A DNA stretch of 64,000 nucleotides from Dokdonella sp. (GTDB taxonomy: Bacteria > Pseudomonadota > Gammaproteobacteria > Xanthomonadales > Rhodanobacteraceae). The position numbers and the translations under genes were made by a program. The stretch's first letter is position 1. Each line of letters starts with the position of its first letter. Positions 33,326-38,979 of the stretch are shown one piece after another. The stretch spans positions 1-64,000 of the forward strand of contig NZ_JAHCAS010000004.1 in NCBI RefSeq assembly GCF_019634775.1, written 5' to 3'. The notes below the pieces were generated by a model. That model was not told where the DNA came from. It ran no database searches and saw only the letters and a program-made list of their open reading frames with translations.

Positions 33326-34474
33326 TCACCAATAGAACTGCGCACGCGCCTCGACGATGTTCGGATCGTCGTCGACGCCACGGCGAGTGCTGTTGACGTG
33401 GACATAGTTGGCAGCAAGCTTGAAGTTCGAGCGCCAGTACCAGTTCACGCCGACCGTGAGGTTGCTTTCCACGCCACCCAGCACCGGGCGGTCGTCCAGA
33501 TCGGTCTTGTCGTAGCGCAGGCCGAGCTGCCACATGCCCGAAGCCGGCTCGCTGGGCAACGGTGTCGACGGCAGTCCATTCTTGTAGCCGAACTTCTCGC
33601 CGGTGAGGTTCCACACGCCCTGGACGTACCAGCTGTTGCCGGTGAAGTCCGGCGCACTCGTTGCACTGGTGCGCGATGTGGTCGAGCGCATGTATTCGCC
33701 CTGCACCTTGAACGGGCCGCCGATCCACAGGCCTTCGAGGCCATAGGTGCGCACGCGATCGGTATTGGCAAGGGTGCCGGTGTCAACGAGGCGTACGGCC
33801 GAGAGATCGGCATCCGGGCGCACGCGCCAGCGCGAGGTGTCGCCATCGGTGTCGTGGTCCATCGCCGACACGCCGAAATGCAGGACATTGCCACCGTCAC
33901 GGATCGGCGCGTAGTAGAAGCGGCCGCCGAAACCCTGGCCCTGATTGAGGTTGCGGGTCAGTTCGCGGCCAAACGCGCTGACCTGATAACCCCAGGGGCC
34001 GGCGTCGCTGCCGTAGGCGACACCGAGGCGGCGCCCCACGCCGAACAGGTTGGTGACCATCGCCTTGGAGATGAAGTCGTTGTGGCGCGTACTGGTCAGC
34101 TCCTCGAGGCTGTTCGGCTGCTTGTACTGACCGATCAGCAGGTAGCTGCTGCCGAGCTTCCACTTGAGGTTGGTGTCGAGGAACTTGTCGGCCTTGGCGT
34201 CGTAGCCGATCACCCAGTCGAACGTGGTGCCCTTGCCCTTGAGCACGATTTCGGCGCGACGCAGCTCGAACTCGCTGTCCTTGCCATTGATACCGGTCGT
34301 GCCGTTGAGATCCTGCACGTCGTTGTCGTACCAGTTGGCGTCGGCCTGGACCAGGCCTTCGAGGCTCACTTCGCTGCCGAACATCACGTCAAGAGCGATA
34401 TCCGCCTGGGCAGCCGGCGCGGCCAGGATCATGGCGATTGCGCTGCCGAGCAGCCGTGGGGTCAGTCGGTTCAT
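33326..34474 (-). CDS. Phosphate-selective porin OprO/OprP family protein
   Basis: A 382-aa outer-membrane porin. After a signal peptide (LLGSAIAMILAAPAAQA), the barrel has family features: EGLVQADANWYDND, FELRRAEIVLKGKGTTFDWVIGYD, LIGQYKQPNSLEELTSTRHNDFI and LGLRYDKTDLDD, ending in EARAQFYW with a C-terminal aromatic residue. P. aeruginosa OprP takes up phosphate when it is scarce; a pst operon lies 3.4 kb away, which fits, but substrate selectivity needs direct testing. The terminator at 33247-33277 ends it. Confidence 0.9.
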   Translation of the reverse strand: MNRLTPRLLGSAIAMILAAPAAQADIALDVMFGSEVSLEGLVQADANWYDNDVQDLNGTTGINGKDSEFELRRAEIVLKGKGTTFDWVIGYDAKADKFLDTNLKWKLGSSYLLIGQYKQPNSLEELTSTRHNDFISKAMVTNLFGVGRRLGVAYGSDAGPWGYQVSAFGRELTRNLNQGQGFGGRFYYAPIRDGGNVLHFGVSAMDHDTDGDTSRWRVRPDADLSAVRLVDTGTLANTDRVRTYGLEGLWIGGPFKVQGEYMRSTTSRTSATSAPDFTGNSWYVQGVWNLTGEKFGYKNGLPSTPLPSEPASGMWQLGLRYDKTDLDDRPVLGGVESNLTVGVNWYWRSNFKLAANYVHVNSTRRGVDDDPNIVEARAQFYW

Positions 34475-34754: not shown

Positions 34755-35177
34755 ATGTCCAGCAAGCACGTCAAACCCGTCGGCATCGCCATCGGCACCG
34801 CCCTGCTCGGTTCGCTGTCGCTCGCCCAACTCGCCGTTGCCAGCGATGGTTTCAAGGCCAGCGACCTTGGCCGTGGCTACGTCGTGGCCATGGCCGGCGA
34901 CAAGGCGAAAGAGGGCAAGTGCGGTGAAGGCAAATGCGGCGAGGGCAAATGCGGTTTCGCCAAGCTCGACGCCAACGGCGACGGCGCGATCTCGGCCGAT
35001 GAATGGAATGCAGCGAAGCCCGACAAGGCCGACAAGTGGGCCAAGCTCGATGCCGATGGCGATGGCAAGGTCACCCGCGAAGAATGGGACGCCGCACACA
35101 AGGCGAAGGAAGGCAAGTGCGGCGAGGGCAAGTGCGGCGAAGGCAAGTGTGGCGGTTCGGCCGAGAAGAAGGGCTGA
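34755..35177 (+). CDS. HvfA/bufferin-like RiPP metallophore precursor with two EF-hands
   Basis: A 140-aa exported precursor. A signal peptide ([22 protein letters not shown]) is followed by EGKCG three times (residues 53-67), then two EF-hand loops ([12 protein letters not shown] at 72-83 and [12 protein letters not shown] at 99-110), then EGKCG three times again (119-133) and a short Lys/Gly end. EGKCG is the motif whose cysteine is oxidised by MNIO enzymes in HvfA-type bufferins; the six cysteines here are the only ones. Both EF loops have the canonical Asp-x-Asp/Asn-x-Asp-Gly...Glu ligands. hvfB starts 7 bp later. Start: ATG with GGAGAAG upstream. The identification is by motif and neighbours; modification is inferred. 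Confidence 0.88.
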
Positions 35178-35184
35178 CAGCGAC

Positions 35185-36033
35185 ATGCGCGCCGGCGCTT
35201 CGCTCGCCGGAGCCGGGCTCGGACTGCGGCGCGGCCTGATCGCCGCGCTGCAGTCTGCCCCATCGATTCCCGTCGACTTCTTCGAACTCGCCCCGGAGAA
35301 CTGGATCGGCGTCGGCGGCCGCCTCGGCCGCGCGCTGCGCGCGTTCACCGAGCGCCATCGTTTCGCCTGTCACGGCCTCTCGCTCTCGCTCGGCGGCCCG
35401 GCACCGCTCGACGAAACCCTGCTCGTGCGCATCCGCCGCTTCATGGACATGCACGGCATCGCCGACTACAGCGAACACCTGTCGTGGTGCAATGACGGCG
35501 GCCATCTGTATGACCTGCTGCCGCTGCCGTTCACCGGCGAGATGGTCCACCACGTCGCCGCACGCATCCGGCGCACCCAGGACATCCTCGGCCGGCGCAT
35601 CGCCGTCGAGAACTCCTCGTACTACGCGGTGCCGCACGCGGAGATGAGCGAAGCCGAATTCATCAACGCCGTGCTCGCAGAAGCCGACTGCGAGTTGCTG
35701 CTCGACGTCAACAACGTGTACGTCAACAGCATCAATCATCGCTATGACGCGCACGCCTTTATCGACGCCCTGCCCGTGGGCTGCACGGCCTGGATCCACG
35801 TTGCCGGCCACTACAACGAAGCGTCCGACCTGATCGTAGACACGCATGGCGCACCGGTGATCGATCCGGTGTGGGCGCTGCTCGAACATGCCTACGCGCG
35901 CTTCGGCAGCGTACCGACCATGGTCGAGCGCGATTTCAACCTGCCGCCGCTCGATGAACTGTTCGTCGAAGTCGGACGCATCCGTCTCCTGCAGGCCGCT
36001 TGCGCCGACGGAGCACGCCGTCGCCATGCCTGA
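35185..36033 (+). CDS. MNIO (DUF692) family RiPP-modifying enzyme, HvfB-like
   Basis: A 282-aa multinuclear non-haem iron oxidative enzyme of the DUF692 family, related to MbnB of methanobactin synthesis. The metal-site blocks are all present: [61 protein letters not shown] and [10 protein letters not shown]. Known relatives convert precursor cysteines to thiooxazole or oxazolone/thioamide groups with a partner protein. Here it follows the EGKCG precursor directly and overlaps the DUF2063 partner gene by 8 bp, so precursor-enzyme-partner order is exactly that of hvfABC/bufferin loci. Confidence 0.93.
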
Positions 36034-36778
36034 AGCATCCGCAGACGATCCGCGCCTTGCCTTCAGCGCGCACCTGCGCGACCCCGACGGCATCGCCGCA
36101 CCGGCCCATATCGAGGCACGGCGCATGGCGATCTACCGCGAACTCGTGCAGAACAACCTGATCGACCTGCTCGGCGGCAATTTTCCAGTGCTGCGCGCCC
36201 TGCACGATGACGCGCAATGGAGCGAACTCGTGCGTGCCTTCCTGCGCGATCACCGTTGCTCGACACCGCTGTTCACCGAGATCGCATGCGAGTTCATCCG
36301 ATTTCTCGAAGCGCGCGCGCCGTCCGGGATCGATCCTCCGTTCTTCGTCGAACTGGCCCAGTACGAATGGAGCGAACTCGCCCTCGCCATCGACGAGGCC
36401 GACATCGACAGCGCGCCCCACGATCGCTCCGGCGATCCGGTCACCGGTATCCCGGTGCTGTCACCCTTGGCCCGGTTGCTTGCCTGGCGCTATCCGGTCC
36501 AGCACATCGGCCCGGCGTTTCGCCCGCATGATCCGCCAGCGCAGCCGACCCTGATCGTGCTCGTGCGCACGCGCGAGGGCGACGTCGGATTCCTTGAGGT
36601 CGATCCGCTGAGCGCCATGCTGTTCCAGACCCTGTCCCGCAACACTGATGCCTGCGGTGCCGATTGCGTGGACGCCGTACTCGCCTCGCTCGGGCGCAGC
36701 GAGCCCGGCCTGCGTGCGTCCGGCCTTTACATGCTGCATGAGTTCCATCGGCGCGAGATCGTGCTCGGCACGCGCTGA
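36026..36778 (+). CDS. DUF2063 partner protein of the MNIO enzyme, HvfC-like
   Basis: A 250-aa protein with an N-terminal DUF2063 (putative DNA-binding-named) domain: [47 protein letters not shown], which matches the HvfC/BufC RiPP recognition partner family, and a C-terminal domain ([36 protein letters not shown]). These proteins bind the precursor and present it to the MNIO enzyme. The gene overlaps hvfB by 8 bp. No DoxX/HvfD-type membrane gene follows; rnt does, after 48 bp. Confidence 0.9.
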
Positions 36779-37919: not shown

Positions 37920-37959
37920 AATGCGGCATCGCATTCAAGCCGCTACCCAAGGAGTTGCC

Positions 37960-38979
37960 GTGACGTTTTCGATCAAGCTCTGTGCCGCCGCCATCGGTCT
38001 TGCCACCGCCGTCGCCGTTCCTGTCGCCGAGGCAGCCGACATCACCGGTGCCGGCGCCTCGTTCGTTTTTCCTCTGATGTCGAAGTGGTCGACTGACTAC
38101 AACGCCGCCACCGGGAACAAGGTCAACTACCAATCGATCGGCTCGAGCGGCGGCATCGCCCAGATCAAGGGTGGCACGGTCGATTTCGGCTCATCCGACG
38201 CGCCGCTCAAGTCCACCGATCTGGCCGCGGCAGGCCTGGTGCAGTTCCCATCGGTGATCGGCGGCGTGGTGCCGGTGGTTCACCTGCCCGGCATCGAGCC
38301 AGGCAAGCTCAAGCTGAGTGGCCCGGTGCTCGCCGACATCTTCCTCGGCAAGGTGGCGAAGTGGAATGATCCGGCGATCGGCGCGCTCAACGAGGGTGTC
38401 GCCCTGCCGGACACCAAGATCACCATCGTGCACCGTTCGGACGGCTCCGGCACGACCTTCAACTTCGTCAACTACCTGTCGAAGGTGAGTCCGGAATGGA
38501 AGTCCAGGGTCGGCGAGGGTACCTCGGTGCAATGGCCGACCGGCCTCGGCGGCAAGGGCAATGAGGGTGTCGCCGCCTACGTCAAGCAGGTCAAGAACTC
38601 GATCGGCTATGTCGAACTGTCGTACGCGTTGCAGAACAAGATGACCTACACGCAGATGCAGAACGCGGCCGGCAAGTTCGTTGCGCCGAATGCCGAGTCG
38701 TTCGCCGCCGCGGCCGCCAGTGCGGACTGGGCCAACGCCACTGACTTCAGCCTCGTCATCACCGACGCTCCGGGTGACCAGGCCTGGCCGATCACGGCAA
38801 CGAACTTCATCCTCATGCACGCCCAACCAAAGGATGCGGCACGCTCGCAGGCCACCCGCGAGTTCTTCGGTTGGGCCTACGCGAACGGCAAGCAGCAGGC
38901 ATCGGCACTCGACTATGTGCCGCTGCCGGACAAGCTGGTCGAGCAGATCAAGGCCTACTGGTCGGCGAAGATCAAGTAA
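37960..38979 (+). CDS. pstS: Phosphate ABC transporter substrate-binding protein
   Basis: The periplasmic phosphate-binding protein of the Pst importer, 339 aa. After the signal peptide (IGLATAVAVPVAEA/ADITGAG), ligand-contacting segments include TGAGASFVFPLMSKW, GSSGGIAQIKGGTVDFGSSDAPL, HRSDGSGTTFNFVNYLS and GKGNEGVAAYVKQVKNSIGYVELSYA. GTG at 37960 is selected because AAGGAG is 6 nt before it; the in-frame ATG at 37921 lies within the probable promoter. A long hairpin follows the stop. Confidence 0.97.
   Translation: MTFSIKLCAAAIGLATAVAVPVAEAADITGAGASFVFPLMSKWSTDYNAATGNKVNYQSIGSSGGIAQIKGGTVDFGSSDAPLKSTDLAAAGLVQFPSVIGGVVPVVHLPGIEPGKLKLSGPVLADIFLGKVAKWNDPAIGALNEGVALPDTKITIVHRSDGSGTTFNFVNYLSKVSPEWKSRVGEGTSVQWPTGLGGKGNEGVAAYVKQVKNSIGYVELSYALQNKMTYTQMQNAAGKFVAPNAESFAAAAASADWANATDFSLVITDAPGDQAWPITATNFILMHAQPKDAARSQATREFFGWAYANGKQQASALDYVPLPDKLVEQIKAYWSAKIK

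Follow-up and report, generated by a model that had tools for sequence, protein, structure and literature searches.

Background

Oxazolin (HvfABC, Haemophilus) and fontiphorin (FonABC) are captophorins whose precursors carry EGKCG repeats and are served by HvfB- and HvfC-family maturases, and the 5-thiooxazole product binds copper (PMC12668002, PMC13419390). FonBC needs two tandem EGKCG repeats (PMC12668002), and mutation of the iron-site residues N175, D242 or H244 inactivates HvfB (PMC13419390). Bufferin 1 (DUF2282) and bufferin 2 likewise pair an MNIO and a DUF2063 partner with a Sec-exported copper-binding RiPP.

A second type of EGKCG protein carries EF-hands. EfhP (PA4107) of Pseudomonas aeruginosa has been studied since 2014, when the operon PA4107-PA4106-PA4105, with its DUF692 and DUF2063 genes, and the EF-hand loops at residues 88-99 and 115-126 were reported (PMC4053335); four EGKCG repeats were recognised in the protein in 2024 (PMC11559002). 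EfhP binds Ca2+ with a Kd of 13.7 µM, changes in hydrophobicity with Ca2+ (PMC9132961) and has effects on Ca2+ homeostasis and on iron-uptake genes (PMC9132961, PMC4053335, PMC11559002). The studies available to us treat it as a Ca2+ sensor and report no copper phenotype for it. In the available parts of a 2025 survey (PMC12452194), the Buf_EGKCG/oxazolin family has a second type with two EF-hand_5 domains, these chimaeras are associated with MNIOs, EfhP is named as an example and a link between MNIO RiPPs and EfhP-type Ca2+ sensing is proposed. The same text describes a short EGKCG domain with the EF-hands at its C-terminus. Among the literature available to us in full or in part, no test of cysteine modification or copper binding was found for any EGKCG/EF-hand protein.

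The locus considered here lies in a 64,000-nucleotide stretch of DNA from Dokdonella sp. (contig NZ_JAHCAS010000004.1), the whole of which is termed the window. An earlier note, made from the sequence alone, knew of no characterised bufferin with an EF-hand/EGKCG precursor; given the class named in 2025 and the work on EfhP, the novelty of this combination is largely gone. What the available descriptions of the chimaeras do not contain is the two-armed layout found here, with an EF pair between two EGKCG blocks.

A three-gene operon under purifying selection

The locus is a genuine three-gene operon, hvfABC (Table 1), and the only MNIO locus and only EGKCG gene detected in this genome. A Shine-Dalgarno-like GGAGAAG precedes hvfA, which runs from an ATG to a TGA; the hvfB ATG follows 7 nt past that stop, and the ATG of hvfC lies within hvfB (ATGCCTGA). 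The tight packing, the coordinates and the 8-bp hvfB/hvfC overlap given in the earlier note proved exact to the base. Promoter and terminator scans found nothing, and a copper-responsive promoter was not detected.

Table 1. Features of the hvfABC locus and its neighbours (window positions).
Feature	Coordinates	Strand	Basis
hvfA-like precursor, 140 aa: Sec-type leader, 3x EGKCG, EF-hand pair, 3x EGKCG	34755..35177	+	ORF, Pfam/NCBIfam, dN/dS
N-terminal signal peptide, about aa 1-30	34755..34844	+	read by eye from sequence
N-terminal arm, three tandem EGKCG (Cys 56, 61, 66)	34914..34955	+	motif scan
EF-hand loop 1, aa 72-83	34968..35003	+	Pfam EF-hand_5/EF-hand_1, EF fold predicted (pLDDT about 83)
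EF-hand loop 2, aa 99-110, 27 residues past loop 1	35049..35084	+	Pfam, predicted EF fold
C-terminal arm, three tandem EGKCG (Cys 122, 127, 132)	35109..35153	+	motif scan
hvfB-like MNIO (DUF692/PF05114) maturase, 282 aa	35185..36033	+	Pfam, NCBIfam, structure match, alignment
hvfC-like partner, DUF2063 + NGO1945_C (RRE-type) domains, 250 aa	36026..36778	+	Pfam, NCBIfam, structure match
Porin_O_P (phosphate-type porin), divergent from hvfA	33326..34474		
PstS-like binding protein gene, downstream of operon	37921..38979		

Purifying selection acts on all three genes. In comparison with L062, the nearest relative (its precursor is 84% identical to that of the window), dN/dS was 0.18 for hvfA, 0.26 for hvfB and 0.36 for hvfC. 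The EF-hand pair of hvfA is itself constrained, with a dN/dS of 0.20 against L062 and an agreeing 0.18 against a second relative, L063; the EGKCG and EF modules are thus both maintained.

Maturases and class assignment

HvfB is a complete MNIO/DUF692 enzyme, as had been noted (PF05114, E=6.6e-100), and scores 413 bits with the NCBIfam HvfB family NF003818 (cut-off 360). Among solved structures the closest is 3BWW (E=9e-71), an MNIO described as 72% identical to H. influenzae HvfB (PMC13419390). Read off the 3BWW alignment, the iron-site residues N175, D242 and H244 correspond to N176, D219 and H221 of the window protein. These three and H63, H98, E142, D174, H205 and H209 are invariant among 59 aligned MNIOs, and E248 is likewise listed as conserved in the window HvfB. 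The partner has DUF2063 (PF09836, E=1.9e-24) and NGO1945_C (PF22106) domains, scores 257 bits with the HvfC family NF050145 (cut-off 142) and matches the structure 3DEE.

With repeated EGKCG in a Sec-leader precursor, an HvfB-family MNIO retaining its iron ligands and a DUF2063-RRE partner (HvfC/PME1), the system has the make-up of HvfABC/captophorin operons. Its shared features with oxazolin and fontiphorin are the EGKCG repeats and both maturase families; their precursors have no reported EF-hands, whereas that of the window has two. The label "Bufferin/HvfABC-type" originally given to the locus therefore stands in its second half: HvfABC-type is right in kind, with family cut-offs passed, and a strict bufferin is not. 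Bufferin 1 in the strict sense (DUF2282/BufB) was rejected, since the MNIO reaches 267 bits with BufB NF050167 (cut-off 310) and Pfam gives no DUF2282 match; the precursor also belongs to a different family from those of bufferins 1 and 2. A PADLOC search for defence families gave no match.

The EGKCG domain and two EF-hand_5 beside MNIO and DUF2063 genes also place the locus among the Buf_EGKCG/EF-hand_5 chimaeras, as far as the available text of PMC12452194 describes them: domains, core operon and phylum (Pseudomonadota) are the same, but the EF pair is described there as C-terminal and is internal here, with three EGKCG following it. EfhP is exported, as the window protein is predicted to be, and shares with it EGKCG repeats, a DUF692/DUF2063 operon and two EF-hands 27 residues apart (88 to 115 in EfhP, 72 to 99 in the window). 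In EfhP (155 aa), 29 residues follow loop 2, as many as make up the EGKCG-free tail in Pseudomonas homologues such as L107; EfhP would therefore be of the C-terminal type, with four EGKCG and probably no second arm, in contrast to the block on either side of the EF pair in the window protein.

The precursor: two EGKCG arms around an EF-hand pair

The signal peptide, six EGKCG motifs and two canonical EF-hand loops claimed for the precursor are all present. By inspection, the signal peptide has K4 and K7 in its n-region, a hydrophobic core and an AVA-type cleavage site, and lacks a lipobox. A point that had not been stressed is that the EF pair is set between two blocks of three EGKCG each. Pfam recognises EF-hand_5 (PF13202, E=2.1e-12, 46.3 bits) in two stretches, and the NCBIfam KCGExKCG repeat domain NF050137 scores 33.9 bits (cut-off 19.5); with the HvfA equivalog NF050188, for the oxazolin precursor proper, the score is 34.7 bits against a cut-off of 95. 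A match to XopAW lies under its NCBIfam cut-off and reflects the EF-hands only.

AlphaFold2, run on a 19-sequence alignment, predicts the EF pair with confidence (residues 71-110, pLDDT 82-85; loop strands at 78-80 and 105-107). Both EGKCG arms are predicted to be disordered (pLDDT <50), so that the model is uninformative on copper geometry. Foldseek aligned the EF pair with calmodulin-type lobes at about 2-3 Å over about 58 residues (E about 0.01), with none of its matches below E=0.001. A compact, predicted EF pair between disordered arms, together with the Ca2+-dependent structural change shown for EfhP (PMC9132961), would suit an EF pair that assists export: while cytosolic Ca2+ is low it would stay unfolded and allow handling by HvfB and Sec, and on folding at high periplasmic Ca2+ it would stop backsliding and protect the arms, leaving copper affinity unaffected. 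Most EGKCG precursors are exported without an EF module, which is thus not required for export, and we regard this explanation as rather unlikely.

Lanthanide binding by the EF-hands, as in lanmodulin, was considered in view of a weak NCBIfam lanmodulin match and the short linker between the loops. That match scores 20 bits, far under the cut-off of 135, and by fold the EF pair matches calmodulin-like lobes. Lanmodulin characteristically has proline at loop position 2; here that residue occurs in 1 of 92 loops, and both loops of the window protein have Ala there. Membership of the lanmodulin family was rejected, and lanthanide binding is extremely unlikely.

Distribution of the two-sided layout

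Eighty named loci, gathered from GTDB genomes in a sample biased towards the window protein, were classified by script. EGKCG motifs stood on both sides of the EF pair in 32 (the window included), and in 14 the two recognised EF loops were confined to the region after the EGKCG part; three further loci had one recognised EF loop, one Bacteroidales protein was set aside and the rest were EF-less. When 300 genomes sampled from the order were searched with a profile of the two-sided layout, the best 30 matches were all two-sided; as such a profile favours two-sided matches, this shows that the layout is common and not what share it has. Judged from these sequences, the layout is common among Lysobacterales and also found in some Pseudomonas. 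Both maturase genes lie downstream in 31 of the 32 two-sided loci, and the MNIO gene alone in the other (L073, on a short contig). Each of the 32 precursors has a tandem EGKCG pair in one arm or both, and in 30 the C-terminal arm has one.

The two loops are 27 residues apart in 36 of the 46 proteins with two recognised loops and 24-28 in the others. All 46 have Gly at loop position 6 and Glu at position 12, both positions at which the search pattern allowed alternatives; as the pattern fixed position 1 and restricted positions 3 and 5, the count of conserved loop positions is in part circular. Conserved ligands, steady spacing and an EF-pair dN/dS of about 0.2 all speak against the EF pair being a non-functional passenger. 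Its loss in some relatives and a degenerate loop in the Pseudomonas homologues L123, L125 and L136 would fit such a role; because of the selection data it is very unlikely.

Several Pseudomonas EGKCG/EF-hand genes have no adjacent MNIO gene (L103, L116, L117, L121, L122, L123, L124, L125, L136, L098, L109, L137), and the three with a degenerate loop have one such loop each. When the absence of an adjacent MNIO was followed up, an MNIO was found somewhere in all 13 genomes searched, which proves little as there is no base rate; with an MNIO elsewhere in each such Pseudomonas genome, modification in trans is possible. The Bacteroidales protein (L127:4586-5540, from a MAG, 314 aa) is lipobox-like at its N-terminus and contains KCGEGKCG motifs as well as a duplicated block of several EF-hands; an HvfB/HvfC homologue is absent from its locus.

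Evolution of the system

On a midpoint-rooted tree of 59 MNIOs the architecture labels were strongly clustered, with 6 changes against 22 expected on shuffling. The Lysobacterales/Pseudomonas portion of the tree contains two-sided and C-terminal systems together with some that are EF-less. Four rows of the EfhP-like C-terminal type form a supported clade (100/99); it is nested in a supported set (98/95), of which the remaining 14 rows are two-sided. Within the EF-bearing part of the tree lies an EF-less Arenimonas/Rehaibacterium branch (L084, L094, L095, L097, L100), which offers a natural comparison for EF loss. The simplest reading of these sequences would be one EF-bearing ancestor, among whose descendants the second arm was later lost and the EF pair disappeared at least once; as the tree is midpoint-rooted, we infer the direction of change.

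The Arenimonas/Rehaibacterium branch bears on whether Ca2+ sensing in the periplasm, as in EfhP, is the main role of the protein, its modified cysteines being secondary (redox or iron/copper sensing) and its output signalling in place of metal buffering. The Ca2+ affinity of EfhP, its Ca2+-dependent hydrophobicity and its effects on Ca2+ homeostasis and iron uptake favour a sensor. However, leader, operon and maturases are the same as in EF-less copper-binding relatives, and the branch lacks the EF module but has EGKCG and maturases, which makes the EGKCG/maturase core the constant part. A sensor role is possible but on the unlikely side.

Proposed function

The exported product of the operon is very probably a copper-binding protein built round a calcium-binding module. 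With good confidence the locus can be read as an HvfABC-type (captophorin/oxazolin-class) RiPP operon whose modified periplasmic copper-binding arms would sit on a Ca2+-binding EF hub, and the product itself is most likely a periplasmic 5-thiooxazole copper binder of the captophorin/oxazolin type on that hub. Cysteine modification, copper binding, Ca2+ binding and periplasmic location are what we infer from relatives. HvfC would recruit the HvfA precursor via its leader, and in the cytoplasm HvfB, with a mixed-valent diiron centre, would turn the EGKCG cysteines into 5-thiooxazoles by oxidation. The modified protein would leave through Sec; in the periplasm the two arms would bind copper, and the EF pair between them would bind Ca2+ and fold as a compact hub holding the arms.

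An influence of Ca2+ on copper binding is speculative. In a fuller form, the protein might be a Ca2+-gated, two-armed copper clamp, in which the EF pair, loaded with Ca2+ on export, folds like a calmodulin lobe and draws the thiooxazole arms together with copper held between them. Copper affinity or stoichiometry would then depend on Ca2+, the proteins would form a distinct, widespread subtype in Lysobacterales and some Pseudomonas, and the EfhP type, in which the EF pair is C-terminal, would derive from that subtype by loss of the second arm. Taken jointly, these proposals are unlikely.

The locus joins two literatures that seldom meet, those of copper-binding MNIO RiPPs and of EfhP-type bacterial Ca2+ sensing. 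Symmetric blocks of three EGKCG round a canonical EF pair are a convenient test object for Ca2+/copper coupling, and the two-armed layout makes shaping or gating of metal binding by Ca2+ more testable than in EfhP.

Genomic neighbourhood and congeners

The Porin_O_P and PstS-like neighbours suggested Pho control, which was rejected. The sole Pho-box-like match upstream is no more than chance would give (2 such matches in the window, 6.5 expected), and it is not visible in the upstream regions of relatives. L062 appears to keep the flanking genes: the divergent porin was recognised by its start sequence, and the exonuclease and PstS-like neighbours were judged by position and size only.

Among 11 genomes of the same genus (G000-G010; L156-L166), most have an MNIO beside a bufferin-2-like precursor (VNACKGHNGCK...), and in three congeners both systems, or a second MNIO, are present. 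In the window genome and in G002 the EGKCG/EF-hand system stands alone. Every one of the 11 genomes thus has at least one MNIO system.
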